NCBI RefSeq assembly: GCF_035961655.1
Contig: NZ_CP108393.1
Location: 310,001-374,000, forward strand
Source of the DNA: Streptomyces sp. NBC_01317
GTDB taxonomy: Bacteria > Actinomycetota > Actinomycetes > Streptomycetales > Streptomycetaceae
DNA: 64,000 nucleotides
Direction of reading: 5' to 3'
The translations under genes were made by a program, and so were the position numbers. The notes beneath the pieces were generated by a model. That model saw only the letters and a program-made list of their open reading frames with translations, ran no database searches and was not told the DNA's origin. Position 1 is the stretch's first letter. Every line of letters starts with the position of its first letter. Of the stretch, positions 22,362-43,425 are shown piece by piece.

Positions 22362-23351
22362 TCAGCGCGCGCCGGTGTGCCCGCGGAGCAGGCACTCCTC
22401 CAGGAACGCCACCGCCCGGAGGTGGTAGGCGCGGGCCGCGTGCCCGAGGCTGATGTTGTGGCCGGCTTCGGGCAGCCGCTCCACCGTGACGTGCGGGGCC
22501 GCGGTGAGGAGGGCCGTCATCGCGGTGAGGTCCTCCTCGCCGAGCCGCCACCACAGTTCGTGTTCCGCGAACGTCAGGCGTACGGGGATCGTGACGCGGC
22601 CGGCCAGGCGCGGGTACTGCGCGGGCCAGGAGGCGGTCTGGGCGGCCTCGTGCCGGGGGACCCGCTGGAGGAGGGAGCGGCTCGCCCGGAACGTACCGGG
22701 CGGATAGAGGTGCAGCGGGCCCCAGTTGAGCCGGGACGCGCCGCCGCCGAGGGTGTCGGGGAAGTGGCGGGCCTCGGGATTGTACTGCCAGCCGCAGCCG
22801 TTGACGTCCAGGCCGAGGAGCGACCCGCCGGCTTCGGCGGCCGCCATGTGGAAGGCGACCTTGCCGCCGTCGGAGTGGGCGGCGAGGAAGAAGCCGGCCC
22901 CGGTGGGGTGGGTGTGGGCGAAGGCGGCGAGCGCGGTGTGCAGGACGACCGCCTGTTCGCCGAGGGAGTGGCCCTCCGGGAGCTGCCGCGCGGACAGCCC
23001 GTACCCGGGGCGGTCCAGCGCCAGTACGGTGTGGCCGAGCCGCGCGCCCAGGGTGAGCAGGGAGTTGAGCGGGTCGGTCAGGCCGTTGAAGTACTCGGCG
23101 CACATGCCGCGGCCGTGCACGGCGACGATGACGGCGCGTGGCGCGCCGCCGGTGCCGTCGTGGACACCGGCCGGTTCGGCGAGCAGGCCGGACACCTGGA
23201 CCCCGCCGGCGTCCAGGAGGATCGGCCGGACGGCGGGGACAAGGCTGGGATCGGGTCCGAGAACGGGAACGGGGCCGGGGTCAGGAGCGGCGGCGGGGCC
23301 GGAGCCGAGGGCGGGGCCGGGCGGTGGTGTGGTGTCGGCCGGAGCGGTCAT
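22362..23351 (-). CDS. Alpha/beta hydrolase (last gene of the 12-gene operon)
   Basis: 329 aa. A Pro/Gly-rich N-terminal stretch of about 40 residues precedes an alpha/beta-hydrolase fold: VIVAVHGRGMCAEYFNGL, HTVLALDRPGYGLSARQL, nucleophile elbow FFLAAHSDGGKVAFH (AHSDG in place of GxSxG), VRLTFAEHELWWRLGEEDL with an acid, and LPEAGHNISLGHA with the catalytic His. It may hydrolyse a thioester or ester intermediate, or act as editing or off-loading enzyme. It follows the TrpC-like gene by 36 bp and marks the likely left boundary of the biosynthetic cluster. Confidence 0.8.
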   Translation of the reverse strand: MTAPADTTPPPGPALGSGPAAAPDPGPVPVLGPDPSLVPAVRPILLDAGGVQVSGLLAEPAGVHDGTGGAPRAVIVAVHGRGMCAEYFNGLTDPLNSLLTLGARLGHTVLALDRPGYGLSARQLPEGHSLGEQAVVLHTALAAFAHTHPTGAGFFLAAHSDGGKVAFHMAAAEAGGSLLGLDVNGCGWQYNPEARHFPDTLGGGASRLNWGPLHLYPPGTFRASRSLLQRVPRHEAAQTASWPAQYPRLAGRVTIPVRLTFAEHELWWRLGEEDLTAMTALLTAAPHVTVERLPEAGHNISLGHAARAYHLRAVAFLEECLLRGHTGAR

Positions 23352-23387
23352 GGGTGGTGGTCTCCAGGAGCGGTACGGACGGGGCGG

Positions 23388-24098
23388 TCAGGGCGTGCGG
23401 GAGGGTGGCCGGACCCTGGCACGGTCCAGGTCCTCCAGCCAGCCGGCCGCGCTGTCGGTGCGCAGCAGCGACGTACCGACCAGCAGGCCCGCGAAGCCCG
23501 CGTCGAGCAGGCGCGCGGCGGCGACCGGGCTGTCGATGGCGCTGGCGCTCACCGGACACCGGGTACCGGACGCGCGGAGGGCGGGCAGCAGGGCCATGCT
23601 CCGGTCCAGGTCTCCGCGATCGCTCTCCTTGACCTTGATGTCCTTGTTGTTGACGGCGACCACGCACTCCTCGGCGTGCGGCAGCCCGTCGAGTTCCGCC
23701 TCCTGGGTCACTTCCACGAAGGGGGTGAGGCCCTCGGCGAGACAGCCGGAGATCAGGGTGCGCATGCTGGACCTGGGCAGCAGGGCGGCGGTGAGCAGGA
23801 CGGCCGACGCGCCCAGCTCCCTGGCGGTCCGCAGCTGGTCCTTGCGGGTGATGAAGTCCTTCTGGAGCAGGGGCAGATCGGTGAGCGCGGCGACATCGCG
23901 GAGCAGGGCCGTCGTTCCGCCGAACCAGCGGCCCGTCACCACGGAGATGCAGGGCGCGCCCGCGCGTTCGTACGACTCCACGATCGCGGCCGGGGTGCGT
24001 CCGCCGAGCAGGTCGTAGCCGTGCGCGTCACGCCGCTTGACCTCCATGACCAGCGGGCGCTCGGCGGCCAGCAGGGCTTCCAGGAAACGGGCGGTCAT
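23388..24098 (-). CDS. TrpC-like indole-3-glycerol-phosphate synthase homologue
   Basis: 236 aa, shorter than ordinary TrpC (about 260-270) because the N-terminal helix region is missing. The barrel keeps Glu19/Lys21 (LVMEVKRRDAHG), the second Lys in LLQKDFITRKDQL, a Glu in PFVEVTQEAE and the NN pair in VAVNNKDIKV. The usual SPS after KRA is DAH, and the SESGI loop is SASAI, removing a conserved Glu. It would close an indole-type pyrrole ring with loss of CO2 and water from a 1-carboxyarylamino-deoxyribulose phosphate. The ATG overlaps the TrpF-like stop by 4 bp. The altered residues suggest a substrate other than the anthranilate derivative. Confidence 0.82.
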   Translation of the reverse strand: MTARFLEALLAAERPLVMEVKRRDAHGYDLLGGRTPAAIVESYERAGAPCISVVTGRWFGGTTALLRDVAALTDLPLLQKDFITRKDQLRTARELGASAVLLTAALLPRSSMRTLISGCLAEGLTPFVEVTQEAELDGLPHAEECVVAVNNKDIKVKESDRGDLDRSMALLPALRASGTRCPVSASAIDSPVAAARLLDAGFAGLLVGTSLLRTDSAAGWLEDLDRARVRPPSRTP

Positions 24099-24796
24099 CT
24101 GGTCTCCTCCAGGAGAGGTACGGTCCGCCAGGCGCGGGCCAGGGCGGTGACGGCCGGCGCCGCGAAGCGTCCGTGGCCGTCGCGTGCCGCGGTGTCGACG
24201 TCGACGCCGCGGAACCCGGGGTGGCTCACGACGGCTTCGAGGCCGGGGCGGTGGGCGGGGGTGATGCCCCCGGCGAGCAGGAACGGCCGGGTGAGGCGCG
24301 GCAGCAGGTCCAGTACGTCGTCTGCGCGGAGGGACTGTCCCGTGCTGCCGATCCGGCCGTCCTCGGTGGTGGTGTCGAGGAGGAAGAGGTCCGTGCCGGC
24401 CCGTTCGTAGGCGCCGATCAGCGGGCGTTCCAGGCAGGCGCCGTCGCGCAGGTGGAGCACCTTGACCAGCACCGCGTCGGGCAGGGCGGAGCGCAGCGCC
24501 CTGACCACGGAGGGCGGCTGGTAGGCGTGCAGCTGGAGCCAGCGGAGCCCGGTGCGTCGGGCCACGGCGGCGAGGGCGTCCGGGTCGCCGAGGAAGGTGA
24601 CGAGGACCGGTTCGAGGCGGCCGGTGGCACGGGCGGCGGAGACCAGGCCGGCCAGCCGGTCCCCGGGCAGGTCCGCATGGCCGCCGGGCACCCCGTGCCA
24701 GAGGCCGACGCAGGTGGCCCCGTGGGCGGCGAGCAGGGCGATGTCGGCGGGTTCGGTGGCTCCGCAGACCTTGAGGACGCCGGCCGGCACGCTCAT
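24095..24796 (-). CDS. TrpF-like phosphoribosylanthranilate isomerase homologue
   Basis: 233 aa. LKVCGATEPADIALL holds the catalytic Cys11 and FLLDTTTEDGRIGSTGQ the catalytic Asp141. PFLLAGGITPAHRPGLEAV and GVDVDTAARDG are the phosphate-binding loops. It should carry out the Amadori rearrangement of an N-phosphoribosyl arylamine. Streptomyces normally lack trpF because PriA (HisA) serves both pathways, so a dedicated copy inside a biosynthetic operon is notable and argues for a special substrate. Coupled by 4-bp overlaps to the acyl-CoA dehydrogenase before it and the TrpC-like gene after it. Confidence 0.83.
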   Translation of the reverse strand: MSVPAGVLKVCGATEPADIALLAAHGATCVGLWHGVPGGHADLPGDRLAGLVSAARATGRLEPVLVTFLGDPDALAAVARRTGLRWLQLHAYQPPSVVRALRSALPDAVLVKVLHLRDGACLERPLIGAYERAGTDLFLLDTTTEDGRIGSTGQSLRADDVLDLLPRLTRPFLLAGGITPAHRPGLEAVVSHPGFRGVDVDTAARDGHGRFAAPAVTALARAWRTVPLLEETR

Positions 24797-25938
24797 TGGC
24801 CGAGGCCCATCATCGAGGCGATGCGGTTGTACTGGATCTCGCTGGTGCCGGAGTAGATGGTGCCGGCCACGGCGTTGCGTACGTCCTTCTCCAGGCCGTA
24901 CTCGGTCATGTAGCCGTGGCCGCCGAAGAGCTGGACGGCGGTCAGGCTGGTGGCGAGGTTGGATTCGCTGGTGAGGAGTTTGGCGATGGCGAGGTCGGTG
25001 GTGACGTTCTCGCCGGCCGCGAGGCGTTCACCGGTGTCGTACAGCCATTTGGCGGCCGTCTCCAGTCGGATCTTCGCGTCCACGATCTTGTTCGCCACGG
25101 CCTGGTAGGAGCCGATGGTCTTCCCGAAGGAGCGGCGGGTCCTCGCCTGCTCGACGAGGCGGCCGAGACGGTGCCGCATCTCCCCCACGTTGACGATGAA
25201 GGAGTAGAGGATCTCCCGTTTCATCACGTGGTCGAGCACGAGGAACCCTCCGCCGACGCGGCCGAGGACCTGGGTGGCGGGGACGCGGCAGTCGTCGAAG
25301 TAGAGCTCGCTGATGGGTGAGGTGCGCAGGCCCATCTTCTTGGTGGGTTTGCCGATGACGAGACCGGGAGTGTCCCGGTCCACGAGGAACGCGGTGACGC
25401 CGAGGGCTCCGCCGTCCGGGCGCGTACGCGCGTAGACGACGATGACGTCGGCGACCGGCCCGTTGCTGACGAAGATCTTGCCGCCGTTGAGGACGAAGTG
25501 GTCGCCGTCCCGGACGGCCCGGGTGGTCATCGCCATGGCGTCCGAGCCGCTCTCCGCCTCGGTGATCGCGTGGGCGCCGATCGTCTCGCCCGAGCAGATC
25601 CGGGTGAGGTACTTGTCCTTCTGGGCCGCCGTGCCGAACTGCTCCACGGGGACGCCTGTGCTGGCCATGGTGGTGGTGACCGAGAAACTCAGCCCCGAGT
25701 CGCGGCAGTTCTCGCCCAGGCCTTCGAGCACGTGCATGGTGGTGAGCAGGGACTGTCCAAGGCCGCCCCACTCCTCCCCGAAGGGCAGTCCGAGAATGCC
25801 GGTCTCCCGGATCAGCTTCCACTTGTCCCAGGAGAACGTGGCCTGTTCGTCCTGTTCGATGTGGCCGGCGCTGAGGGCCTCGCCCCACCGTGCCAGGCCC
25901 TCGCGCAGGTCGGTCTGATCGGCGTTCCAGCGGATCAC
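24793..25938 (-). CDS. Acyl-CoA dehydrogenase, aminoacyl-carrier-protein dehydrogenase type
   Basis: 381 aa, complete three-domain flavoprotein. AHAITEAESGSDAMAMTTRA and the NGGKIFVSNGPVADVIVVYA core bind FAD; RRSFGKTIGSYQAVANKI is the usual C-terminal signature. The Glu in YEGT of medium-chain enzymes is Ser363 (YSGTSEIQ). A Glu at 242 (MKREILYSF) aligns with the alternative base of isovaleryl-CoA dehydrogenase and of PigA/RedW/PltE, which oxidise prolyl-S-PCP to pyrrolyl-S-PCP. With a free adenylating enzyme and carrier protein in the same operon, oxidation of an aminoacyl-S-carrier is the best guess. The substrate amino acid is not established. Confidence 0.85.
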   Translation of the reverse strand: MIRWNADQTDLREGLARWGEALSAGHIEQDEQATFSWDKWKLIRETGILGLPFGEEWGGLGQSLLTTMHVLEGLGENCRDSGLSFSVTTTMASTGVPVEQFGTAAQKDKYLTRICSGETIGAHAITEAESGSDAMAMTTRAVRDGDHFVLNGGKIFVSNGPVADVIVVYARTRPDGGALGVTAFLVDRDTPGLVIGKPTKKMGLRTSPISELYFDDCRVPATQVLGRVGGGFLVLDHVMKREILYSFIVNVGEMRHRLGRLVEQARTRRSFGKTIGSYQAVANKIVDAKIRLETAAKWLYDTGERLAAGENVTTDLAIAKLLTSESNLATSLTAVQLFGGHGYMTEYGLEKDVRNAVAGTIYSGTSEIQYNRIASMMGLGQ

Positions 25939-25984
25939 GGCGAGCCTTTCGATGTACGTACGGACCGTGCGGGTCTGGGGTGGA

Positions 25985-26359
25985 TCAGTAGGCGGAGGAG
26001 CTGTGTTCGTCGAGCTGGTGCACCTCGTCGCCCTGGAGGGCCGGGGAGAAGACGCAGACCAGGCGGAGGTCCTCGTGCGGGCTCGCCACGAGGTAGTGGG
26101 GATCGTTCTCGTTGAGGGAGTACAGGACGCCCGGTGTGAGCGCGTGGGACGTACCGTCGAGCTCGATCACCTCGCCGGAGCCCTCGATGCAGTAGCAGGT
26201 CTCCAGGTGGTTGCGGTACTGGAGGCGGGACTTGGTGCCGGCGCGCACGGTGGTGTCGGTGACGCTGTAGTCGAGGCCGTCCGCGGCCGTGAGGAAGCGA
26301 CGGCTCAGGCCGTTGCCCCATTCGACGGTCTTGACGTTCTCCAGGTCACGGATAATCAT
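25985..26359 (-). CDS. EctC-like cupin (ectoine synthase family)
   Basis: 124 aa from the ATG at 26359 with GGGAG upstream (a TTG two codons earlier is less likely). The whole chain follows ectoine synthase: MIIRDLENVK, TTVRAGTKSRLQYRNHLETC, YCIEGSGEVIELDG, GVLYSLNENDPHYLVAS and LRLVCVFSPALQGDEVHQ. The metal ligands Glu53, Tyr80 and His88 have the spacing of EctC. EctC closes a ring by condensing an amide carbonyl with an amine. No ectA, ectB or ectD is near, so this orphan copy is probably a cyclase for a pathway intermediate. It begins 2 nt after the TrpA-like stop. Confidence 0.85.
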   Translation of the reverse strand: MIIRDLENVKTVEWGNGLSRRFLTAADGLDYSVTDTTVRAGTKSRLQYRNHLETCYCIEGSGEVIELDGTSHALTPGVLYSLNENDPHYLVASPHEDLRLVCVFSPALQGDEVHQLDEHSSSAY

Positions 26360-26361
26360 GT

Positions 26362-27189
26362 TCAACTCCCTGTTCTCTCTGGTGTGTTGGTTGGGATGGG
26401 AGAGACGGACCCGACGAAGTCGCGGAAGGCCCGGACGATGTCGTCGCCCTGGTCGAGTGCCTGCTCGACCGTGGCGACGCCGGCGGAACCGATGATCACG
26501 CCATCGGCGCCGCAGGCTCGTACGGCTTCCACGTCCTGTCTGGTCCTGACCCCGAAGCCGACGGCTATCGGGGACGTCGTGTGCGCCCGGAGAGCGGTGA
26601 CCGTGCCGGCCAGGTCCGCGTGGCCGGTGGCCGGCGCGGTGCCGCTGCGTCCGTAGTGGGCGACGAGATAGAGGTAGGCGGTGGCGTCGGCCGCCGCCTC
26701 CGCCCGGGTGGCGGGCGGGCTCTGCTGGTAGCAGGTGGTGACGACGGGCAGCCCCGCCTCGCGGGCGGCGGCCAGGTGGGCGGCGCGCAGCCGGGGCGGC
26801 AGCGCGTGGACGAGCAGGCCGTCCGCGCCCGAGTCGGCGATGGTACGGGTGGTGGCCGCGAGGTCCCGGTGCTTGAGCGAGTGGCTCCAGTCGGCGAGCA
26901 GCGCGATCCGCAAGGTGCGCAGTCCCGGGCGGACGGCGGCGACGAACTCCAGAACCTCGTCCAGGCCCACGCCGAGGGCGAGCGCGCGGCTCGCCGACCG
27001 GCGGATGACGGGCCCGTCGGTGACCGAGTCCGGGAAGGGGACGGCCAGTTCGAGGCAGTCGACACCCTCGTCGTCCAGCATCCGCACGAGATCGGCGAGG
27101 ACGTCGAGGGGCGGGTCCCCGGCGTTGAGGAACAGCGCGAGGCCGGGTCCCTCGCCGCCCGTCCTGGCGCGGGTGAAGAAGTCAGACAT
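26362..27189 (-). CDS. TrpA-like tryptophan synthase alpha homologue
   Basis: 275 aa from the ATG at 27189; the frame upstream of it overlaps the TrpD-like gene. The catalytic Glu47 and Asp58 are in LELAVPFPDSVTDGPVIRRS, followed by loop residues in CYQQSPPATRAEAA, a YLVAHYGRSGTAPA segment replacing the usual GVTG loop, and the phosphate site FGVRTRQDVEAVRACGADGVIIGSA. It would split indole-3-glycerol phosphate, or an analogue, into the free indole and glyceraldehyde-3-phosphate. No trpB partner is present, as in plant BX1-type indole lyases. Overlaps the TrpD-like stop by 8 bp. Confidence 0.83.
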   Translation of the reverse strand: MSDFFTRARTGGEGPGLALFLNAGDPPLDVLADLVRMLDDEGVDCLELAVPFPDSVTDGPVIRRSASRALALGVGLDEVLEFVAAVRPGLRTLRIALLADWSHSLKHRDLAATTRTIADSGADGLLVHALPPRLRAAHLAAAREAGLPVVTTCYQQSPPATRAEAAADATAYLYLVAHYGRSGTAPATGHADLAGTVTALRAHTTSPIAVGFGVRTRQDVEAVRACGADGVIIGSAGVATVEQALDQGDDIVRAFRDFVGSVSPIPTNTPERTGS

Positions 27190-28237
27190 GGGCCGCTCCG
27201 CCCGCACGGACCAATGGCCGCGCCTGGTCGGCACGGACGCGCTCGGCCAGGGCGCGGGCCGCTCCGCCCCGTACCGCTTCCTCCGCCGCCGCGACGGCCC
27301 GGCTCCAGTCGGTGAGGTGGCCGCTCGCGACGGCCAGGGCCGCGGCGTTGAGGCAGACCGTGCGGGTGGCCACCTCACCGGCGGTGCCGCCGAGGACGGA
27401 CAGGAAGTGGTCCGGCGCCGAGGCGGGGTCGGCGGCCGGGCCGAGGTCGTCGAACCCGCCCTCGGAGGAGACCAGTTCACCGGCCTTGACGGTGAACTCG
27501 CCCCCGGCGTCGCCGTTGGTGTGGATGGTGTTGTCGGCGAAGCCGAGCAGTTCGTCGGCTCCCCGGTCGTTGCTGGTCAGCCACAGGGTGCGATCGGTGA
27601 CGGTCCCCGCGAGGGCGCGGAGTCCGGTGAGCGGCGCACTCGCGGAGACCCCGGTGACCTGGGCGGTGACGGGCAGGTCGGCGAGGAAGGGACCCAGGGC
27701 GTTCAGGAAGCGGCCGAAGGGCTTCATGCTCAGCGGCGCGACGGTCCTGGCGAGCCGGGTCAGCTGCGCGGGGTAGACGAACGGCCCCGCGAAGGCGATG
27801 CCGTACCGCTCCAGCGTCCCTTCGGTCTGCTCGTACGACGACGTCAGCCGGATCCCGAGGCGTTCCAGCAGGTCGACGGAGCCGAGGCTGCTGGAGTAGG
27901 CACGTGAGCCGGTCTTGACGACCCGTACGCCCGCCGCGGCGGCGACGAACGCCGACGCGGTCGAGATGTTGAAGGTCCTGGGGCCGCCGCCGGTGCCCAC
28001 CACGTTGACCGTGCCGGGCCAGCGGTCCGCCGGCCGGGCGGGCCGCCGTTCCGCGAGCGAGTCCAGCAGGTGGCGCAGGGTCTCGTGGTCGGGGAGCCGG
28101 GTGGCCAGGGAGGTCAGCAGGGCCACGGCCTGTGCCCGGTCGAGGCTGCCGTCGCCGAGCTGGTCCCAGAACGACCGCCAGGTCTCGCGCCCGACGGGCG
28201 CGCGCTGTTCGAGCAGTCCGAGGATCGCGAGGTGCAT
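27182..28237 (-). CDS. TrpD-like phosphoribosyltransferase with altered acceptor site
   Basis: 351 aa from the ATG at 28237. The PRPP-side features are present: VVGTGGGPRTFNISTASAF (residues 79-97) and the metal-binding Asp228-Glu229 (DRGADEL). On the anthranilate side, canonical KHGNR is KTGSR (108-112) and HPAM is YPAQ (155-158). The following RREL-G-RT-FN stretch is replaced by a divergent one ending GRFLNALGPF. It should transfer phosphoribose from PRPP to an amine, but probably not anthranilate. First of four Trp-type genes in the operon; 1 bp separates it from the carrier protein gene. Confidence 0.82.
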   Translation of the reverse strand: MHLAILGLLEQRAPVGRETWRSFWDQLGDGSLDRAQAVALLTSLATRLPDHETLRHLLDSLAERRPARPADRWPGTVNVVGTGGGPRTFNISTASAFVAAAAGVRVVKTGSRAYSSSLGSVDLLERLGIRLTSSYEQTEGTLERYGIAFAGPFVYPAQLTRLARTVAPLSMKPFGRFLNALGPFLADLPVTAQVTGVSASAPLTGLRALAGTVTDRTLWLTSNDRGADELLGFADNTIHTNGDAGGEFTVKAGELVSSEGGFDDLGPAADPASAPDHFLSVLGGTAGEVATRTVCLNAAALAVASGHLTDWSRAVAAAEEAVRGGAARALAERVRADQARPLVRAGGAAHV

Positions 28238-28238
28238 G

Positions 28239-28502
28239 TCAGCTTCCTGCGACCTCTGGCCGGCGCGAGCCCGAGACGAAGGCGTCGATCGCGGCGACAC
28301 TGCGGAAGTTGTCCGGGTCGAGGTCCTCGTCGCCGATGGCGACCTCGAACCGGTCCTCGACCCAGGCGATCAGCTTCAGCACACCGAGGCTGTCGATGAC
28401 ACCGTCGGAGAGCAGGTCGTGGTCGTCGGCCAGCTCCTCGGCGCTGACGTCGGGCAGGAACTCCTCGATGACGAACTGCTTGATGGTGCCGACGTGGCTC
28501 AT
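28239..28502 (-). CDS. Acyl/peptidyl carrier protein
   Basis: 87 aa. A four-helix carrier protein with the phosphopantetheine Ser38 in SDGVIDSLGVLKLIAWVEDRF. The sequence DSLG with a hydrophobic pocket and acidic helix II fits free-standing PCP/ACP partners of discrete adenylating enzymes. It overlaps the adenylation gene by 4 bp, so it is most likely loaded by that enzyme and its cargo oxidised by the acyl-CoA dehydrogenase. Confidence 0.88.
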   Translation of the reverse strand: MSHVGTIKQFVIEEFLPDVSAEELADDHDLLSDGVIDSLGVLKLIAWVEDRFEVAIGDEDLDPDNFRSVAAIDAFVSGSRRPEVAGS

Positions 28503-30007
28503 GACGTTCTTCCTTTCGCTGATGACAGAGGGTGGAGCCGGTCGAGCGCCCTGCGGTCGACCTTCCCGGTGGCGGTCTTGGGCAGCGGCTCGTCGACGAT
28601 CCGCAGCTGGGCGGGGACGGCGGCCCTGGGCAGGCCCTGGGCGCAGTGCTTGCGCAGTTCGAGGCTGCTCACCCCGCTGCCGGGCGCGCGGTGGACCGCG
28701 GCGATCAGGACGCGGCCCTCGATGGGGTCGGGCACGGCGGCCACACCCGCTTCGAGCACGGAGGGGTGGTCGAGCAGGACCCGTTCCACCTCGGCGGTGT
28801 TGACGGCCACGCCCCGGACCTTGACCTGGTGGTCGCCGCGTCCCGTGAGGTGGAGCCGTCCCTCGGTGTCGCGCCGTACGAGGTCGCCGGTACGGAACCA
28901 GGGGCGGTCGTCGAGCCCGAGGGGGTGACCGGTGAACACTCCGGTGTGCCGGGTCCGGTCGAGGTAGCCCGCCGACTGGAAGGGTGTCGACACGTACAGC
29001 TCGCCGGAGCCCGGTCCGGTGACGGGCCGGCCGTCCTGGTCCAGGACCAGGGCCTCGACGCCGGGGAGCGGGACGCCGATCGGCACGGGTGTGCCGGTGG
29101 TGGCGTCCACCTCGTGGACGAAGCTGTCGTTGGTCTCGGTGCAGCCGTAGATGTTGTGGATCCGCGCCGAGGGGAAGAGCTTGGGCAGCCCGCCCAGGGT
29201 GCGGTCGGGGATGACGTCGCCGGTGAACATCGCGTGCCGGACGCCGGGCAGGGTCACCCCGCGCCGCTCGGCCGCGTCGAGCAGCAGGCCGTAGAACATC
29301 GGCACCGCCTGGACGACCTCGACGTCGTGGCGCACGAGCAGGTCGAGGAGGTGTCCGCCGCGGGCGGCGAGGGCGGGGTCGACCAGGACGACCCGGCCGC
29401 CGTGGGCGAGCGTGGTCCACACATCGAGCAGGCAGAGGTCGAAGTTGAGCGGGGCGTAGTTGAGGACGGTCGTGCCCGGGGTGATCGAGAAGGCGGGTCC
29501 CGCCCAGGCGGCGAAGCGGTTCACGGCGTCCCGGCCCAGCGGGACGATCTTGGGCAGGCTGGTGGAGCCCGAGGTGGTGAGCATGAACGACACCTCGGCG
29601 GCCTCGCGGGGCGAGAGCGGCTGCGGGGTGACCTCGGGGTTGGGCACCACGCCCGGGTCCTCGGCCCCGGGGGCGATCACCCGGCGGCAGCCCGCCTGGG
29701 CGAACAGGTCCGCGAGCAGGGCGGGGGCGAGGGCCGGGGACGGCAGGAGGAAGGGGCGCCGGGCGAGCAGGCACGCCAGGACGAGGGCGACGGCCGCGGG
29801 TGACTTGGTGCCGAGGACGCCGACGGGCTCGCCGGGGGTGAGCCCGATCCGGTCCAGCCGTTCGCGCTGCTGTCCCGCCTGCTCGTACAGCTCGCGGTAC
29901 GAGGTCTCCTCGCCGTTCCAGACGAGCGCGGGCGCGTCGGGGCGCTCGCGGACCTGGAGGAGGAATCCGCCGACGAGGCCGCCGGGGCCGGGGCTGTCAG
30001 TGCTCAT
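28499..30007 (-). CDS. Stand-alone amino acid adenylating enzyme
   Basis: 502 aa. Complete core motifs: A3 LTTSGSTSLPKIV, A4 region NFDLCLLDVW with the Asp expected for binding an amino group, A5 YGCTETND, A7 RTGDLVRRD, A8 GRGDHQVKVRGVAVNTAEVE and A10 PKTATGKVDRRAL. It activates a carboxylic acid, by the A4 Asp probably an amino acid, and loads it on the carrier protein encoded next. The trio of A enzyme, PCP and dehydrogenase copies the L-proline to pyrrole-2-carboxyl module of prodiginine and pyoluteorin pathways. Specificity was not computed. Its start overlaps the MaoC gene by 11 bp. Confidence 0.88.
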   Translation of the reverse strand: MSTDSPGPGGLVGGFLLQVRERPDAPALVWNGEETSYRELYEQAGQQRERLDRIGLTPGEPVGVLGTKSPAAVALVLACLLARRPFLLPSPALAPALLADLFAQAGCRRVIAPGAEDPGVVPNPEVTPQPLSPREAAEVSFMLTTSGSTSLPKIVPLGRDAVNRFAAWAGPAFSITPGTTVLNYAPLNFDLCLLDVWTTLAHGGRVVLVDPALAARGGHLLDLLVRHDVEVVQAVPMFYGLLLDAAERRGVTLPGVRHAMFTGDVIPDRTLGGLPKLFPSARIHNIYGCTETNDSFVHEVDATTGTPVPIGVPLPGVEALVLDQDGRPVTGPGSGELYVSTPFQSAGYLDRTRHTGVFTGHPLGLDDRPWFRTGDLVRRDTEGRLHLTGRGDHQVKVRGVAVNTAEVERVLLDHPSVLEAGVAAVPDPIEGRVLIAAVHRAPGSGVSSLELRKHCAQGLPRAAVPAQLRIVDEPLPKTATGKVDRRALDRLHPLSSAKGRTS

Positions 30008-33595: not shown

Positions 33596-33662
33596 GTTTC
33601 GGACAATTACCGGAGTCCTCTCAACCCTGGACCCGAAGTGCGACGCAATTCAACGACAGCCG

Positions 33663-33737
33663 CGCAAGGCGGGCGCAACACGGCTGTGAGATGGGGGAAT
33701 TGGGACAGCGCAACAAGAACGCGACAGCGAACGGCAA
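33663..33737 (-). promoter_or_regulatory. SARP-type 11-bp repeats upstream of the 12-gene operon
   Basis: On the plus strand CGCAAGG (33663) and CGCAACA (33674) start 11 bp apart. Upstream of the leftward operon a second array has CGCAACA (33709), CGCGACA (33720) and ACGGCAA (33731), again 11 bp apart. All face the same way, reading TGTTGCG towards the AONS gene. About 9 nt past the proximal repeat a -10-like TTGAAT occurs. This is the layout of SARP-activated promoters. Confidence 0.65.
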
Positions 33738-33786
33738 TCGGAACTCAAGGCTCCAGCCATTCAAGTGGATTGTTCTCCGGCCACTG

Positions 33787-33817
33787 TTGACACACCGAGA
33801 AGGGTGGCCGGTATCGT
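33787..33817 (+). promoter_or_regulatory. Putative promoter of the SARP gene
   Basis: TTGACA (33787-33792) and TATCGT (33812-33817) with a long 19-nt spacer. If used, transcription would start near 33824, almost at a GTG at 33827 that could act as a leaderless start. Confidence 0.4.
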
Positions 33818-33877
33818 CCAATTCTTGTGCGGGGGGCATACCCGAGACGTGTCCCGCTTTCCTCCACAAGGACAAGC

Positions 33878-36666: not shown

Positions 36667-36927
36667 CTACGCCTGCGCCGGCTGCGGCACGAGCGCGAGG
36701 ATCCGCTCGTACACATGGCGCAGCGTCGTGGTGTCATCGAGGTCCGCGAACAGCGACTCGTCGGCGGGGATGTGCGGGTACTGGTTCTGGAACCCGTACA
36801 GCCACTCCATCAGGTCCAGCGAGTCGACGTCCGCGATGTGCTGGAGCGGTGCATCGGGGCTGACCTCCTGGGCGCCCGACACGGCCTCGAGCTGGCTCGC
36901 CAGTTCTTCGATGGTGGGCAGCGTCAT
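36667..36927 (-). CDS. Acyl carrier protein
   Basis: 86 aa. Ser36 in HIADVDSLDLMEWLYGF is the phosphopantetheine site (DVDSLD rather than the housekeeping LGADSLD). As the first gene of the operon with KAS III and a ketoreductase, it is probably the chain-extending ACP, distinct from the amino acid carrier encoded at 28239-28502. Ends 12 bp before the KAS III start. Confidence 0.88.
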   Translation of the reverse strand: MTLPTIEELASQLEAVSGAQEVSPDAPLQHIADVDSLDLMEWLYGFQNQYPHIPADESLFADLDDTTTLRHVYERILALVPQPAQA

Positions 36928-36985
36928 GAGCTTCGGTCCTCTCTCGCGGTGCATCCGGTTTCGAGAGGCATGCAAGCGCGGGCCG

Positions 36986-37038
36986 CGCAACCGGCGCGCA
37001 ACACCGGTGCCGTACGGCCGTGTTGCGCGTCTGTTGCG
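36986..37038. promoter_or_regulatory. Divergent SARP-type repeats
   Basis: CGCAACC (36986) and CGCAACA (36997) lie 11 bp apart on the plus strand. TGTTGCG (37021) and TGTTGCG (37032), their mirror image, are also 11 bp apart. Eight nucleotides outside each pair come GCTTGC (leftward) and GCTTTC (rightward). The symmetric arrangement between the ACP operon and the methyltransferase operon indicates two back-to-back SARP-activated promoters. The interval 36928-37167 has no gene. Confidence 0.7.
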
Positions 37039-37167
37039 AGCGAACCGCTTTCCTCGTGACCGGATCGCAGGACCGGATCGCCCGGCGGGATCGGCGGTCG
37101 GACCGGCCGCCGCACCGGTGGTCGGTACGAGCGGATCGCGGAACCAACACCAGGAAAGAGGTCGAGG

Positions 37168-38052
37168 ATGACAACGGTCGCCCCCAGATCCGTGGACCCC
37201 GAGGTCGACGCGGTCAGGCACCACTACGAGGTGAGCAACGATTTCTACGCTCTCCTGCTGGGCCCGTCCATGATGTACTCCGGCGGCTACTGGGAGCCGG
37301 ACGAGACGCTCGTCGGGGCCCTGGACGAGGCGCAGTTCCGCAAGCTCGACACGTTCGCCGAGCTGGCCGGCGCCAAGGACGCGGGCCGGGTGCTGGACAT
37401 CGGCTGCGGCTGGGGCACCATGCTCAACCGGCTGACGACGGTCCACGGGGTGCGCGAGGCCGTCGGCCTGACCCTGAGCCGTACCCAGGAGGCGTTCATC
37501 ACCGGCCTGGACAACCCGCGGATCACCACGCGGGTGGAGAGCTGGGCGGACCACACGACCGAAGAAAAGTACGACGCGGCGTTCTGCATCAACGCGCTGG
37601 AGCACTTCGTCTCCTCCAACCTGCCGCCGCGCGAGCGCACCAAGCGCTACCGCTTCTTCTTCAACCAGGTCTCCAAGGCGCTCAATCCGGGGGCGAAGTT
37701 CGTCCTGCACACGATGACCGCCGAGGCGCAGCCGATGAGCCGCGAGCTGCTCGCGGACCTCAAGTTCCTCCAGCGCAGCGAGTTCGAGGGGATGCACATC
37801 CCGCATCTGCACGAGCTGACCGCCGCCGCGGAGGGTCTCTTCGAGGTCGTGGAGATCGTCAACGAGCGGGAGTCCTTCGCCCAGGCGTGCCGCGCCTGGC
37901 TGGAGCGGCTGGCCGCGGACCGTGAGACCGCGGTCGCCCTTGAGGGCGAGGACGTGGTGGCCCGCTTCGAGCGCTACCTCGACATCTTCGCGTACACCCT
38001 CGAGGACAAGTTCTTCAACAACTTCCGCGTCACCATCGCGCGCAGGGGCTGA
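37168..38052 (+). CDS. SAM-dependent methyltransferase, cyclopropane-fatty-acid-synthase type
   Basis: 294 aa. It follows the CFA/mycolic acid cyclopropane synthase pattern: HYEVSNDFYALLLGPSMMYSGGYWE at the N-terminus, the SAM site VLDIGCGWGTMLNRL, GLTLSRTQEAFI and a C-terminal ERYLDIFAYTLEDKFFNNFRVTIARR. Such enzymes methylate alkenes of acyl chains to cyclopropanes or branched products, though some act on small natural products. First gene of the rightward operon behind the CGCAACA repeats. The enoyl chain expected from the MaoC step would suit it as a substrate. Confidence 0.85.
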   Translation: MTTVAPRSVDPEVDAVRHHYEVSNDFYALLLGPSMMYSGGYWEPDETLVGALDEAQFRKLDTFAELAGAKDAGRVLDIGCGWGTMLNRLTTVHGVREAVGLTLSRTQEAFITGLDNPRITTRVESWADHTTEEKYDAAFCINALEHFVSSNLPPRERTKRYRFFFNQVSKALNPGAKFVLHTMTAEAQPMSRELLADLKFLQRSEFEGMHIPHLHELTAAAEGLFEVVEIVNERESFAQACRAWLERLAADRETAVALEGEDVVARFERYLDIFAYTLEDKFFNNFRVTIARRG

Positions 38053-38062: not shown

Positions 38063-39625
38063 GTGACGAGCATTCTCGAACCCGCCCACGGCGGCGGAGT
38101 GAGCGGTGAGGCGCGGGACGCGGCCGGCCGGGGGCCGACCCGTCATCTGCGGGTCGCGGTCATCGGCAGTGGCTTCTCGGGCCTGGGTACGGCCATCCGG
38201 CTGCTCCAGCAGGGCATCGACGACTTCCTGGTCTTCGAGCGGGCCGACGAGGTGGGCGGCACCTGGCGCGACAACTCCTACCCGGGGTGCGCCTGTGACG
38301 TGATGTCCCACCTGTACTCCTTCTCGTTCGCGCAGAACCCGCACTGGAAGAGCACGTTCGGCAAGCGCGACGAGCTGTACGCGTATCTGCGGGACTGCGC
38401 CGACCGGTTCGGGGTACGGCCGCACATCCGCTTCGGCCACGAGCTGATCGCCGCCCGCTGGGACGACGCGACCCGCCACTGGCACATCGAGACCTCGGGC
38501 GGGGAGTACACCGCTCAGGTCCTGGTCACCGGCACCGGGTATCTCAGTGAGCCGGCGCTGCCGGACATCCCGGGTCTCGCGGACTTCGAGGGGAAGGTCT
38601 TCCACTCCTCGCGCTGGGACCACGACCACGACCTGGCGGGCCGGCGCGTCGCCGTCATCGGCACGGGGGCCTCCGCCATCCAGTTCGTCCCGAAGATCCA
38701 GCCCGAGGTGGGGCACCTGGACCTCTACCAGCGCACTCCCCCGTGGGTCGGCCCGAAGAACGACAAGGCCACCAGCCCGCTCCAGGCGAAGCTGCTGCGC
38801 GGACTGCCCGGTTACCAGAACTTCCGGCGCAACTTCAACATGTGGGGCCGCGAGATCCTGGCCTTCGTGATGGCGCGTCCCAAGGTCGCCGGGAAGATGC
38901 AGAAGATGGCGTCGGACCATCTGAAGAAGAGCGTCGCCGATCCGGCGCTGCGCGAGCGGCTGACGCCCGACTACGTCATGGCGTGCAAGCGGCTGCTGTT
39001 CTCGAACACCTGGTACCCGGCGATCCAGCAGCCCAACGTCGAGCTCGTCACCGACGGGATCGACCACATCAGGGCCAAGTCGGTGGTGGGCAAGGACGGC
39101 CAGGAGCGCGAGGTCGACACCATCATCCTCGGTACGGGCTTCAAGGCCGTGGACCGGCCGGTCGCCGGGCGGATCTGGGGCCGGGGCGGCGTCCAGCTGC
39201 GGGAGGCCTGGAGCGGGGGCATGTCCGCGCACCGCGGCACCACCGTGGCCGGCTTCCCCAACCTCTTCATGCTGCTCGGCCCCAACACGACCCTCGGGCA
39301 CTCCTCGCAGGTCGTGATGATCGAGGCCCAGATCGCCTACGTGCTCAGCGCGCTGAAGCAGATGGACCGGCGCGGCCTGTCCAGCGTGGAGGTCCGCGAG
39401 GAGGCGCAGGCGGCGTACAACACGGCGCTCGACGAGCGGCTCGACGGCACGGTGTGGAACGCCGGGAACTGCAAGAGCTGGTACCTCGACAGCAGCGGCC
39501 GCAACCCGTCGATCTGGCCGACGTACACCTGGCGGTTCCGCCGCCAGACCAAGCACTTCGATCTGGGCGAGTACCAGCTCGCCACCACTGTCGGCGCCGG
39601 AAGACCGGCTGTGAAGCACGTATGA
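38063..39625 (+). CDS. Flavin monooxygenase, Baeyer-Villiger type
   Basis: 520 aa from the GTG at 38063 after GAGGAGGCCACC. The FAD site is VAVIGSGFSGLGTAIRL and the NADPH site VAVIGTGASAIQFVPKI. FEGKVFHSSRWDHD matches the type I Baeyer-Villiger fingerprint (F-x-G-x-x-x-H-x-x-x-W). The C-terminal WPTYTWRFRRQTKHFDLGEY is usual for this group. It would insert oxygen next to a ketone, for instance the ketone left by the AONS, or oxygenate N or C atoms. Its start is 10 bp after the methyltransferase stop. Confidence 0.87.
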   Translation: MTSILEPAHGGGVSGEARDAAGRGPTRHLRVAVIGSGFSGLGTAIRLLQQGIDDFLVFERADEVGGTWRDNSYPGCACDVMSHLYSFSFAQNPHWKSTFGKRDELYAYLRDCADRFGVRPHIRFGHELIAARWDDATRHWHIETSGGEYTAQVLVTGTGYLSEPALPDIPGLADFEGKVFHSSRWDHDHDLAGRRVAVIGTGASAIQFVPKIQPEVGHLDLYQRTPPWVGPKNDKATSPLQAKLLRGLPGYQNFRRNFNMWGREILAFVMARPKVAGKMQKMASDHLKKSVADPALRERLTPDYVMACKRLLFSNTWYPAIQQPNVELVTDGIDHIRAKSVVGKDGQEREVDTIILGTGFKAVDRPVAGRIWGRGGVQLREAWSGGMSAHRGTTVAGFPNLFMLLGPNTTLGHSSQVVMIEAQIAYVLSALKQMDRRGLSSVEVREEAQAAYNTALDERLDGTVWNAGNCKSWYLDSSGRNPSIWPTYTWRFRRQTKHFDLGEYQLATTVGAGRPAVKHV

Positions 39626-41169
39626 CGAACGGGAGAACGGACCAGATGAGCAACAGCACTCCTTCTCGGCGCAGGGTCCTGGGCGGGATCGCCGCCACCG
39701 CGGCCACCGTGGTGGGCTGGAACGCCACCACCCAGACGTGGGCGACCGCGGCGGAGTCCGGCCGGGGCCACGGCGGGCACGGCGGGCACGGCGGCCAGGT
39801 GTCCCCCGTACCGCCGCTGGACGGGACGCTGAAGACGTCCGGGGCCGAACTGGCGCCGTTCGGGCGGGACTTCGGCCGTCTGGTGACGGACGCCGTGCCG
39901 TGGGCGGTGCTGGTGCCCGGATCGGACCGGGACGTCGTCACGATGGTGAACTACGCCAGGGCGAACAACCTCAAGATCGCCGTCAACGGGCGCAGCGGCA
40001 CCGGTGACGACATCGAGTCGCACTCCAGCTACGGCCAGGCCTCGGTCCGGGGCGGTATCTCGGTCGACGCGCGCGGTCTCGCGAAGATCTACAGCATCGG
40101 TTCGACCACGGCGACGGTGGGCGCGGGTGTCACCTGGGGCCAGCTGACGGACGCGGCGGCGCCGAAGGGCAAGATGCCGCCGGCGGTGCCGGACTACCTC
40201 CACCTGTCCATCGGCGGCACGCTGAGCGTCGGCGGGATCGGCGGTACGGCGGGCAAGTACGGCCTGCTCGTCGACACGGTCCGGTCTCTGGACGTCGTCA
40301 CGGGCGCCGGCCAGCTGGTCACCACCTCGCCGACGGTCCGCCCCGACCTCTTCAACGCCGTCCTGGGCGGTGGCGGTCAGGTCGCCATCATCCTGCGCGC
40401 CACGGTGGACGTCGTCCCGCTCAAGGAGCGGGCGGTCATCTTCAGCCTGTACTACAACGACGTGGCGACCTACATGGCCGACTCGGAGAAGGTCCTGGCC
40501 GACGGCCGGTTCGAGGTCCAGGCGGGCGAGTTGCAGCGCACCCCGGACGACACGGGCTGGCGTTACAAGCTGGAGGTCGGGGCCGTCTACAACGGCACCG
40601 CCGTCCCGAACCGCGCGGCGCTGCTCGCGGGGCTGCGGGACAACCGGGCGGAGGCCGTCATCGAGGACATGGCGTACCGCGACTACAACTTCCGTCTCGA
40701 CGCGGCGGAGGCGTACCTCAAGGAGACGGGGTACTGGTTCCAGCCGAAGCCCTGGCTGTCCATGTTCCTGCCCGCGTCCAAGGCCAAGCAGTTCCTCAAG
40801 ATCGCCGAGGCCGAGCTGACGGCGAACGACCTGGGCGCCGGCTTCCTGCTGACGTACCCGTACCGCACGTCGAAGCTCAAGCGCCCGCTGGCCGTCCAGC
40901 CGAACGAGCCGGTCGCTTACCTCTTCGACCTGCTGCGCTTCCCCCACCCGGGCGAGCCGGACATCCAGGGGATGCTGGAGCAGAACCGGCGGCTGTACGA
41001 CAAGGCCGTGGCGCTCGGCGCCAAGCGGTACCTGGTCGGCGCCGTCCCGAGGATGACGGAGGCGGACTGGAAGAAGCACTTCGGCAACCGCTACGCCGAG
41101 TTCTGCTCCGCGAAGCGGCGCTACGACCCGGCGGGCATCCTCACCCCCGGCCAGGGTTTCTTCGGCTGA
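39622..41169 (+). CDS. Tat-exported FAD-linked oxidase
   Basis: 515 aa from the ATG overlapping the previous stop (ATGA); an ATG at 39646 (MSNSTPSRRRVLGG) is also possible. A twin-arginine signal (RRRVLGGIAATAATVVGW) is followed by a GHGGHGGHGG stretch near residue 50. The FAD-binding_4 domain includes VPGSDRDVVTMVNYARAN, NGRSGTGDDIESHSSYGQ and LHLSIGGTLSVGGIGGTAGKYG, close to cytokinin dehydrogenase-like oxidases. The usual GRGHS-type His for covalent FAD is displaced. The C-terminus RRYDPAGILTPGQGFFG is standard. An exported oxidase implies a final oxidation outside the membrane. Confidence 0.85.
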   Translation: MTNGRTDQMSNSTPSRRRVLGGIAATAATVVGWNATTQTWATAAESGRGHGGHGGHGGQVSPVPPLDGTLKTSGAELAPFGRDFGRLVTDAVPWAVLVPGSDRDVVTMVNYARANNLKIAVNGRSGTGDDIESHSSYGQASVRGGISVDARGLAKIYSIGSTTATVGAGVTWGQLTDAAAPKGKMPPAVPDYLHLSIGGTLSVGGIGGTAGKYGLLVDTVRSLDVVTGAGQLVTTSPTVRPDLFNAVLGGGGQVAIILRATVDVVPLKERAVIFSLYYNDVATYMADSEKVLADGRFEVQAGELQRTPDDTGWRYKLEVGAVYNGTAVPNRAALLAGLRDNRAEAVIEDMAYRDYNFRLDAAEAYLKETGYWFQPKPWLSMFLPASKAKQFLKIAEAELTANDLGAGFLLTYPYRTSKLKRPLAVQPNEPVAYLFDLLRFPHPGEPDIQGMLEQNRRLYDKAVALGAKRYLVGAVPRMTEADWKKHFGNRYAEFCSAKRRYDPAGILTPGQGFFG

Positions 41170-41297: not shown

Positions 41298-41786
41298 ATG
41301 ACCGGATACGACATCATCGACGAGGCGGTGGTCGGCGCCCCCGCGGACGCCGTCTGGGACGCGCTCGTCGCCGAGTTCCGCGGCGCCGCCGCCTGGTGGG
41401 TCCCGGCGAACACCTTCGAGACCGTGACCGGCGCGCCCGACGTCGTGGGGGGTGAGGTCGCGGTGACCGTCCACACCAAGGGCGTCGACAAGGGCGGGCT
41501 CAAGCTCCGCTTCACCTCGCGCACCCTGTCCGTGGACCCGGGCCGCCGGCTGGCGGTCGAATACGTCGACGGGGTCTTCCGCGGTCCTGCCACGTTTGTC
41601 CTGGAGCCGCTCGACGGCGGGGACCGTACCCGGGTGCGCATGCACTTCCAGGGCCGGCCGCACGGCAAGCTGAAGGTCATCTCCAAGCTCGCCGACATCG
41701 GCGCCGAGCACTCCAAGGCGACCCTCGCGGCCTTCGCGGCGCTGGACCGGCGGCTGGCCGGGGCCCGGGACGGCGCGTCCCGATGA
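41298..41786 (+). CDS. SRPBCC-fold protein
   Basis: 162 aa. The helix-grip START-like pattern is visible: YDIIDEAVVGAPADAVWDALVAEF at the N-terminus, a central beta sheet (LSVDPGRRLAVEYVDG, GPATFVLEPLDGGDRTRVRMHFQG) and a long C-terminal helix (SKATLAAFAALDRRLAG). These proteins bind hydrophobic ligands or act as polyketide cyclases. Its role here may be ring closure or carrying the product. Its stop overlaps the hydrolase start; 128 bp separate it from the FAD oxidase. Confidence 0.78.
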   Translation: MTGYDIIDEAVVGAPADAVWDALVAEFRGAAAWWVPANTFETVTGAPDVVGGEVAVTVHTKGVDKGGLKLRFTSRTLSVDPGRRLAVEYVDGVFRGPATFVLEPLDGGDRTRVRMHFQGRPHGKLKVISKLADIGAEHSKATLAAFAALDRRLAGARDGASR

Positions 41787-42649
41787 GCGCCCTCACGAAG
41801 CTTCCCGCGGGCTCGCTCACCGAGGAGACGACGGTCCGCACCGACGACGGCGCCGCCCTCGCCGTCACCGTCCTCGGCCCCCTGAGCCCCGGGCCCGGCA
41901 GCGGGACCACGGTCGTGCTGGCGCACGGCTGGGCGGCGGGGCGCCGGGTCTGGGGCACGGTCGCCGACCGGCTGATCAGGGACGGCCACCGCGTGGTGCT
42001 GTACGACCAGCGCGGGCACGGCGCGTCCGGCCTCGGCACCGAGCCCATCTCGATCCGGCGGCTCGGCGCCGACCTGGCGGCCGTGCTGGGCGAGACGGGC
42101 TCGCGGGACGCGGTACTGGTCGGGCACTCGGGTGGCGGTTTCGCGGCGATGGAGTACGCCACCGCCGAGCCCTCCCTCGCGCGGCGGCTGCGCGGGCTGG
42201 TGCTGCTGGGCACCGCCGCGCACGACCAGGACACCCCGGACAGTGAAGTACGCATGATGGGCAGCGCGTTGTTCTCCCGGGCGCTGGCGCGGCCCGCGCT
42301 CGGCCGGCGGCTGCTGGGCCAGACGATGGGCAAGAAGGTCGACCCGTGCGCCCTGGAGGTCAACCGGCAGATGTTCGCGGCGGCGTCGCCTCAGGTGCGC
42401 GCGGACTGCTTCAGCTCGTCGCGCGGCATGGACCTGCGGGCGAAGCTGGCCGCCGTCACCACGCCCGCCGTGGTGCTGGCAGGGGAGAACGACCGGGTCA
42501 TCGCTCCGGCGCTGGGCAAGGCGGTGGCGGCCTCGCTGCCGGACGCGCGGTTCGAACAGTTGCCGGGCGCGGGGCACATGCTGCCGCTGGAGCGTCCCGG
42601 AGATGTCGTACGGGCCGTGGCCGGGCTGCTGGCCCGACCCCGGCCGTGA
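41783..42649 (+). CDS. Alpha/beta hydrolase
   Basis: 288 aa. TTVVLAHGWAAGRRVWGTVADRL, the nucleophile elbow VLVGHSGGGFAAMEY (GHSGG), acid in LAGENDRVIAPAL and His in LPGAGHMLPLERPGD give a complete triad. Typical esterase/thioesterase-like domain without signal peptide. Coupled by 4-bp overlaps (ATGA and GTGA) to the SRPBCC and phosphopantetheinyl transferase genes. Possible chain release or ester cleavage. Confidence 0.83.
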   Translation: MSALTKLPAGSLTEETTVRTDDGAALAVTVLGPLSPGPGSGTTVVLAHGWAAGRRVWGTVADRLIRDGHRVVLYDQRGHGASGLGTEPISIRRLGADLAAVLGETGSRDAVLVGHSGGGFAAMEYATAEPSLARRLRGLVLLGTAAHDQDTPDSEVRMMGSALFSRALARPALGRRLLGQTMGKKVDPCALEVNRQMFAAASPQVRADCFSSSRGMDLRAKLAAVTTPAVVLAGENDRVIAPALGKAVAASLPDARFEQLPGAGHMLPLERPGDVVRAVAGLLARPRP

Positions 42650-43425
42650 CGCCGTCCACCACCGTGATCGACGAGATCCTGCCTCCGGGCGTCAGGTCGG
42701 CCGAAGCGTTCGACGACCTGGCGCCCGCGCCGCTGTTTCCCGAGGAGGCCGCGCTGATGGCCGGCCGGTGGGAGCGGCGGCAGCGGCAGTTCGCGACCGC
42801 CCGCGCCTGTGCGCGCCGCTCGCTGTCCCAACTGGGCCTGGCGCCCGCGCCGTTGCTGCCGGGCGCGGGCGGTGCGCCGCAGTGGCCGGCGGGGGTGGTG
42901 GGGAGCATCACCCATTGCGACGGCTACCGGGCCGCGGTGGTGGCGAGGACCACCGACATCGCGGCGCTCGGCATCGACGCGGAGCCCGCCGAGCCGTTGC
43001 CGCCCGGGGTCCTCGGCCTGGTGACGTCGGACGGCGAGAGGGCGGTGGTGGAGCAACTGGCCGCCGCACAGCCGGGCGTGCCGTGGGACCGGCTGCTGTT
43101 CTCGGCGAAGGAAGCGGTGTACAAGGCGTGGTTCCCGGCGACGGGCCGGTGGCTGGGTTTCGCGGACGCCCGCGTCGAGCCGGCCGCCGACGGTACGTTC
43201 CTGGCGTGTCTGCACCCGGCGGACCCTCCCGTACACGCCCCTACGCATTACGCGGGGCGCTGGCTGGTGCGTGGGGAGCTGCTGCTGACGGCGGTGGCCC
43301 TGAGGGCCGTACGGCCCTCGCCGCTCCCCCCGGCCGGTCCGCTCGCCCCGGTCAGCGGTCCAGCACGACGATACGGGCCGGAGCGCCCTGCCGGTGCGCC
43401 GACGGGGACCCGCTGCCCTTCCTGA
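42646..43425 (+). CDS. 4'-Phosphopantetheinyl transferase (EntD/Sfp type)
   Basis: 259 aa from the GTG at 42646, overlapping the hydrolase stop. VVGSITHCDGYRAAVVAR, ALGIDAEPAEPLPPGV (GxDxExxE-type) and LLFSAKEAVYKAWFPATG (F-S-x-K-E-x-x-x-K) are the three PPTase motifs. It transfers phosphopantetheine from CoA to the two carrier proteins of the cluster. Having its own PPTase makes the cluster self-sufficient. The last 74 bp overlap the convergent AraC gene, so the right end of the core cluster is here. Confidence 0.88.
   Translation: MTPSTTVIDEILPPGVRSAEAFDDLAPAPLFPEEAALMAGRWERRQRQFATARACARRSLSQLGLAPAPLLPGAGGAPQWPAGVVGSITHCDGYRAAVVARTTDIAALGIDAEPAEPLPPGVLGLVTSDGERAVVEQLAAAQPGVPWDRLLFSAKEAVYKAWFPATGRWLGFADARVEPAADGTFLACLHPADPPVHAPTHYAGRWLVRGELLLTAVALRAVRPSPLPPAGPLAPVSGPARRYGPERPAGAPTGTRCPS

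Follow-up and report, generated by a model that had tools for sequence, protein, structure and literature searches.

What does a gene cluster make when it joins an amino acid-activating enzyme and an ectoine synthase-like cyclase to four relatives of tryptophan biosynthetic enzymes? We addressed this question for a 64,000-nucleotide stretch of the Streptomyces sp. NBC_01317 genome (the window), which spans positions 310,001-374,000 of a single-contig genome of 8.07 Mb. Gene content was read from our own gene calls and from Pfam and NCBIfam scans of 40 open reading frames (ORFs) at 14.7-50.9 kb of the window. All genes named in an initial annotation, which was made from the sequence alone, were present, and, as it had also stated, no modular polyketide synthase was seen among these ORFs. 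We consider it probable that the cluster makes and extends a fused heteroaromatic starter, in which a glutamine-derived aminopyrrole would be annulated by the Trp-type set before chain extension. The annotation had expected an N-heterocycle-rich product, and we agree that such a product is likely. The core genes form operon A, on the minus strand, in which neighboring genes from MaoC through TrpC overlap or lie at most 46 bp apart. In order of transcription they are:

32360..33517, minus strand: AONS-type pyridoxal phosphate-dependent acyltransferase (aminotransferase I/II Pfam match and NCBIfam match)
30914..32110, minus strand: FabF-type ketosynthase (Pfam and NCBIfam)
29997..30887, minus strand: MaoC-type dehydratase (Pfam)
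28499..30007, minus strand: stand-alone adenylating enzyme (A), pocket code DLLQMTIDS (AMP-binding Pfam)
28239..28502, minus strand: stand-alone peptidyl carrier protein PCP1 (PP-binding, PF00550)
27182..28237, minus strand: TrpD-like phosphoribosyltransferase (PF00591, 120.4 bits)
26362..27189, minus strand: TrpA-like lyase, proposed to release glyceraldehyde 3-phosphate (PF00290, 147.3 bits)
25985..26359, minus strand: EctC-like cupin cyclase (PF06339, 120.8 bits)
24793..25938, minus strand: acyl-CoA-dehydrogenase-like oxidase (ACAD) of the prolyl-carrier dehydrogenase group (Pfam acyl-CoA dehydrogenase domains)
24095..24796, minus strand: TrpF-like isomerase (PF00697, 23.9 bits; cut-off 22.7)
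23388..24098, minus strand: TrpC-like ring-closing enzyme (PF00218, 117.5 bits)

Which substrate does the adenylating enzyme load? With residues numbered in the usual GrsA scheme and positioned by motif, the window pocket differs at its distal positions (Q278, D330 and S331 versus Y, V and C) from a control pocket, DLFYLALVC, which we take to be prolyl-type. A DLLQxTIDS-like code was found in 51 of 56 rows, which are not independent since some genomes give several loci (for example, L067 and L077); a few have one position changed to V, F or H, or end in T instead of S. Among the five exceptions, L044 has a prolyl-type pocket and no EctC match, and L075 and L076 have degenerate pockets. The other two, L089 and L090, have an EctC-like gene whose neighboring A enzyme reads DFYHxTMRV instead (at about 8364-9926 and about 10072-10980, respectively), and no ACAD match; we presume that they may use the non-oxidized amidine, as in pyrrolamide-type products. 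Anthelvencin and kikumycin also contain this amidine.

The EctC-like gene is the sole PF06339 match in this genome. In the Paenibacillus lautus enzyme, Asn38 touches the substrate carboxylate, and Glu57, Tyr84 and His92 bind iron, as an excerpt of PMC6344544 states. Like ectoine synthase, the window protein is a cupin with the iron ligands and Trp21, but Thr replaces Asn38. Across 86 aligned EctC-like sequences, not all of them independent or from the module, the three metal ligands are present in every one and Trp21 in 83, and position 38 is Thr in 62, Cys in 16, Ala in 8 and never Asn. This loss would fit, without proving, a substrate whose carboxylate is not free, for instance one attached to a carrier. 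Ectoine was rejected as the substrate because Asn38 is replaced and neither ectA nor ectB was seen beside the gene among the scanned ORFs.

Precedent for a different cyclization exists. EctC converts glutamine to the amidine 2-amino-1-pyrroline-5-carboxylate as a weak side activity (excerpt of PMC5924519). In showdomycin biosynthesis, as far as an excerpt of PMC8724604 describes it, the cyclase SdmE turns glutamine into this same amidine, which is activated by SdmC, held on SdmD, oxidized and hydrolyzed, with C-glycosylation by SdmA; the title of the primary paper cited there names a pyrrole intermediate. The window holds the same combination of an EctC-like protein, a stand-alone A enzyme, a PCP and an ACAD. 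The YeiN-like C-glycosynthase family PF04227 is present somewhere in 22 of 25 genomes with an EctC-like gene, lying within about 2.3 kb of that gene in G214, G295 and G203, and about 5 kb from it in G310. The three loci nearest a C-glycosynthase (L083-L085) have the pocket DLLQxTVDS, matching the window code type. Since the A enzyme, PCP, EctC-like protein and dehydrogenase match the showdomycin module, and the pocket is common to the C-glycosynthase loci, a carrier-bound 2-aminopyrrole-5-carbonyl made from glutamine is well supported as the predicted product of this module. In contrast to showdomycin, neither PF04227 nor a transglutaminase-like domain was found among the 40 window ORFs, and the window has four Trp-type enzymes.

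What would these four enzymes do beside an aminopyrrole module? They share with the TrpD-TrpF-TrpC-TrpA pathway their folds, their catalytic residues, whose roles we partly assume, and presumably their reaction order. TrpF retains Cys11 and Asp141 (no variation in 23 aligned sequences), TrpC the equivalents of E51, K53, K110 and E159 (18/18) and N180 (17/18), TrpD its PRPP (phosphoribosyl pyrophosphate)-binding and DE motifs, and TrpA its catalytic Glu and Asp (17/17). AlphaFold models covered TrpF and TrpD (pLDDT, a per-residue confidence measure, 91.9 and 88.1), with phosphoribosylanthranilate isomerase (PRAI) and anthranilate phosphoribosyltransferase (AnPRT) as best structural matches; the fold lists place these two first, and other families missing from them carry no weight as evidence. 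What differs from tryptophan biosynthesis is substrate recognition. In TrpD, the asparagine of KHGN and the two arginines of RRELG, which we take to recognize anthranilate, are changed relative to the housekeeping paralog in 18/18, and anthranilate was rejected as the substrate on this ground. TrpC has SAS in place of the housekeeping AES (18/18). TrpE and TrpB were not seen among the scanned ORFs, while housekeeping TrpD, TrpC and TrpA were found elsewhere in the genome. The substrate we propose is an aminopyrrole, and no decarboxylation is proposed.

Our model builds on what the genomes directly give, namely gene content, pocket identity, residue changes and co-inheritance. Its first step has precedent: the EctC-like enzyme would cyclize glutamine, free or carrier-bound, to the 2-amino-1-pyrroline-5-carboxyl unit, the A enzyme and PCP1 would hold 2-amino-1-pyrroline-5-carboxylate as a thioester, and the dehydrogenase would aromatize the carrier-bound amidine to 2-aminopyrrole-5-carbonyl. 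We infer the annulation and its regiochemistry, as well as the final product. TrpD would transfer phosphoribose from PRPP to the exocyclic amine, TrpF would form the Amadori ketose, TrpC would close a new five-membered ring onto the carbon adjacent to the amine with loss of a proton instead of CO2, and TrpA would expel glyceraldehyde 3-phosphate, so that two ribose carbons are retained. The most likely product of this second step would be 1,6-dihydropyrrolo[2,3-b]pyrrole-2-carbonyl, carrier-bound or as the free acid. In the third and weakest step, KASIII, FabF and ACP2 with the ketoreductase (KR) and MaoC may add short reduced units, an amino acid may be condensed by AONS, and finishing of the product may fall to the methyltransferase, the monooxygenase and the FAD oxidase, under SARP control. 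We know of no natural product that contains the fused 5-5 heteroaromatic pyrrolo[2,3-b]pyrrole.

The same module and Trp-type enzymes could instead close the ring on the endocyclic amidine nitrogen, which would yield a pyrrolo[1,2-a]imidazole with the same mass. The enzyme evidence applies equally to this outcome, and forming an imidazole from an amidine and an alpha-hydroxyketone is ordinary chemistry. We nevertheless regard it as unlikely, because in tryptophan synthesis the nucleophile for TrpC and TrpA is a carbon (excerpt of PMC7681013) and the showdomycin pyrrole intermediate is glycosylated on carbon (excerpt of PMC8724604).

Are these genes inherited together? Searching genome contigs with the EctC-like protein gave 35 loci, the closest to the window being from Streptomyces. 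As a conservation set we took the 25 loci with EctC and TrpD and more than 9 kb of flank on either side of EctC; the counts of these two genes are thus fixed by selection, and one genome is counted twice (L010 and L081). With orthologs called when at least half the query aligned at 38% identity or higher, a threshold below which the divergent copies of L035 fall, PCP1, ACAD and TrpC occur in all 25 loci, the A enzyme and TrpA in 22, AONS, FabF and MaoC in 21, TrpF in 20, KR in 16 and KASIII in 10 (many loci stop short of KASIII). Because the neighbors recur across these loci, the grouping is not due to chance. As annotated, the cluster is one coherent biosynthetic unit. Its ends had been set too narrowly at 22362..43425, however, since conserved neighbors extend past them, to about 20.5-46.5 kb.

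Relatives occur in Streptomyces, Actinophytocola and Actinoplanes. Diverged cores are found in a gammaproteobacterial metagenome-assembled genome (L035: ACAD, A, PCP, TrpF, EctC, TrpA, TrpD, TrpC) and, with EctC, ACAD, A, PCP, TrpD and TrpC, on a plasmid of Aliiroseovarius crassostreae (L039, 5175-13793); the plasmid locus also has a transglutaminase-like gene and two ketosynthase-like genes, with RHS and SpvB/TcaC-like genes near. On the Streptomyces clavuligerus megaplasmid (L041, 6063-15480), condensation, adenylation and thioesterase genes adjoin the aminopyrrole-Trp module, so the unit may also serve a nonribosomal peptide synthetase (NRPS). A, PCP, EctC and ACAD occur with transglutaminase-like and arylmalonate-decarboxylase-like genes and without any Trp-type match in a Vibrio plasmid (L042), a Streptomyces globosus plasmid (L043) and Streptomyces loci L077-L080; the module is therefore separable from the Trp cassette. 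These loci (L042 7668-14563, L043 6462-14906, L077-L080) represent a smaller A-PCP-EctC-ACAD-transglutaminase cluster type common to Vibrio and Streptomyces, which also has the Amdase-family gene, a cytidine-deaminase-like gene, two SMR pumps and, in most, a DsbA-like gene; its product is probably aminopyrrole-derived. Six Streptomyces NBC strains carry TrpD relatives on plasmids, and some chromosomes (G129, G199, G272) have the EctC gene close to each of their two ends, placements that suggest mobility.

The annotation had known of no pathway pairing such genes. The EctC-like part does have a precedent in showdomycin, and its combination with TrpD/F/C/A is new: among the open-access literature matches listed, we saw no published cluster with Trp-type and EctC genes and no pathway with all four Trp-type genes. 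We hypothesize that the Trp-paralog set, acting on a carrier-bound aminopyrrole, makes a pyrrolo[2,3-b]pyrrole as a portable unit, used by ketosynthases in the clusters that we call type A, found beside NRPS genes in S. clavuligerus and present in proteobacteria; for this wider claim the case seems to us evenly balanced.

Do the module and the Trp-type enzymes serve one product? Among 392 sampled Streptomyces genomes, 42 had an EctC-like match with an E value of 1e-24 or lower. Assigned by EctC identity, 17 genomes carry type A (76-100%) and 7 carry type B (63-72%); three have both, so that 21/392, about 5%, carry either. Type B loci (L082, L096-L101) have A, PCP, TrpD, TrpA, EctC, ACAD, a transglutaminase-like gene and TrpF in 7/7 and TrpC in 5/7, with no AONS or MaoC match in any of the seven and a distant FabF-like match (37%) in L101; in type A, AONS, FabF and MaoC came into view only at loci read with longer flanks. 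The type A cluster is incomplete in exactly the three genomes that also carry type B. That of G251 is without A and TrpF; those of G174 and G129 are without TrpF and TrpA, and their A gene has lost both the pocket and the A10 motif. In all three genomes, the type B cluster has TrpF, TrpA and an A gene whose code is intact; the special TrpC of G174 and G129 occurs in their type A clusters alone. Each of the 14 remaining type A genomes has TrpF next to EctC. Two TrpF matches and one TrpC match were flagged with TGA, which falls within the last five residues of each match, at the natural end. Random incompleteness would fall on exactly those 3 of 17 genomes with a chance of 1 in 680, although G129 and G174 appear to be close relatives, in which case the three incomplete clusters may stem from two events. 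The matching gaps therefore link A, TrpF, TrpA and TrpC to one product pool.

Besides this relatedness, several points weigh against the pathway, which is predicted here from genes. The likeness to showdomycin enzymes was drawn from loci assigned by an adjoining C-glycosynthase, not from SdmC or SdmE sequences. Retention of catalytic residues in the Trp-type enzymes does not reveal their substrate, and TrpC Asn180 is missing in L035. The 24.9 kb read of the Aliiroseovarius locus showed neither TrpF nor TrpA, which may therefore be replaceable there. A transglutaminase-like gene accompanies the module in the 7 type B loci, L042, L043, L077-L080 and L083-L088; as no such domain was seen among the 40 window ORFs, release or transfer from PCP1 would differ. 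Ring closure without decarboxylation is a further difficulty, although a carbon of the electron-rich 2-aminopyrrole is expected to be far more nucleophilic than one of benzene. For indole-3-glycerol phosphate synthase, ring closure of a substrate without the carboxylate is documented, with deprotonation in place of decarboxylation, but with its benzene substrate the housekeeping enzyme is 41,000-fold less efficient in this closure (excerpt of PMC7681013).

Could the Trp-type genes simply be additional copies that increase the supply of indole or tryptophan, apart from the aminopyrrole module? Their catalytic residues are kept, and some clusters presumably carry duplicate Trp genes. We find this quite improbable, given the changed anthranilate-recognizing residues, the lack of TrpE and TrpB among the scanned ORFs and the housekeeping TrpD, TrpC and TrpA still in the genome; moreover, the Trp-type genes abut or overlap module genes and co-occur with the module across phyla. 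The annotation had likened known parts to prodiginine logic, with prolyl-PCP oxidation and pyrrole formation by KASIII, ketosynthase and AONS. In such a pathway proline would be loaded and oxidized to pyrrole-2-carbonyl, and a ketosynthase and AONS would form a bipyrrole. The likeness to that pathway, which we take to involve RedM/O/W and RedN, extends to A, PCP, ACAD, ketosynthase and AONS. The dehydrogenase, annotated as PigA-type, is indeed closest to a prolyl-carrier dehydrogenase in the PDB and to RedW/PigA in NCBIfam, but it scores far under both cut-offs (352.7 of 650 bits and 350.5 of 500 bits, respectively). Prolyl-PCP oxidation does not agree with the pocket, and the EctC-like gene, conserved in the module, fits the glutamine-to-aminopyrrole route; with EctC and Trp-type genes added, a prodiginine-like pathway is very doubtful. 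Equally doubtful is our initial hypothesis, the loading of beta-alanine or another beta-amino acid, followed by desaturation to an anthranilate-mimicking beta-aminoacrylyl thioester and annulation to pyrrole-3-carbonyl: an ACAD-type enzyme yields dehydro-beta-alanine in bolagladin (excerpt of PMC7756342), but we abandoned the idea because, placed by counting, the A enzyme keeps Asp235 and has Ala five residues earlier, where VinN-type enzymes have Asp230, and because it leaves the conserved EctC unexplained.

The genes expected to extend and finish the aminopyrrole-derived starter lie in operon B (ACP2-KASIII-KR), in operon C (methyltransferase through phosphopantetheinyl transferase) and around them:

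36667..36927, minus strand: second carrier protein ACP2, a small protein with a DSL motif
35671..36570, minus strand: KASIII (Pfam and NCBIfam)
34919..35674, minus strand: FabG-type ketoreductase of the SDR family (Pfam and NCBIfam)
37168..38052, plus strand: CMAS-type methyltransferase (Pfam and NCBIfam)
38063..39625, plus strand: BVMO-like flavin monooxygenase (FMO-like Pfam match)
39646..41169, plus strand: FAD oxidase of cytokinin-dehydrogenase type (FAD_binding_4 and cytokinin-dehydrogenase domain)
41298..41786, plus strand: SRPBCC protein (Polyketide_cyc2)
41783..42649, plus strand: alpha/beta hydrolase (Pfam)
42346..43425, plus strand: phosphopantetheinyl transferase, given as the open frame, true start not fixed (PF17837, PF01648)
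33878..34834, plus strand: SARP regulator (BTAD, PF03704)
22362..23195, minus strand: alpha/beta hydrolase downstream of TrpC, a possible release enzyme (Pfam)
20531..22227, minus strand: DUF1772 and MTHFR genes, also beside several relatives; MTHFR may supply methyl groups
44506..46511, minus strand: DUF1772, hemerythrin and NmrA genes (Pfam), adjoining the cluster in L040 too
33518..33877, no strand: divergent promoter with two TGTTGCGC octamers
36928..37167, no strand: divergent promoter with 11-bp-spaced repeat pairs on both strands

By the motif patterns that we assume, the active sites of KASIII, FabF, KR and AONS are intact in the translations. ACP2 has no Pfam or NCBIfam match and adjoins KASIII in relatives too. 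The FAD oxidase has a twin-arginine-like SRRR stretch at its N-terminus.

The three operons had been described as linked by SARP repeats. The TGTTGCGC octamer is indeed confined to the two divergent promoters (4 copies in the window), but this number is not unusual in itself (at least 4 copies in 9/100 shuffles), and 3 of the 8 copies of the 7-mer TGTTGCG lie outside these promoters. The AONS/SARP gap holds at least one TGTTGCG in 16/25 relatives and none in 9/25. The repeats are a plausible candidate SARP operator. A second SARP gene lies near the cluster with TetR-type and AfsA-type genes (47860-50901), a group that suggests gamma-butyrolactone control.

If our model is true, four consecutive steps of primary metabolism would have been redeployed together on a new substrate to produce a new fused N-heterocycle. 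EctC, the DLLQxTIDS code and a TrpD without anthranilate recognition together offer a handle for genome mining, and the genomes whose type A and type B clusters complement each other would be a ready natural experiment.

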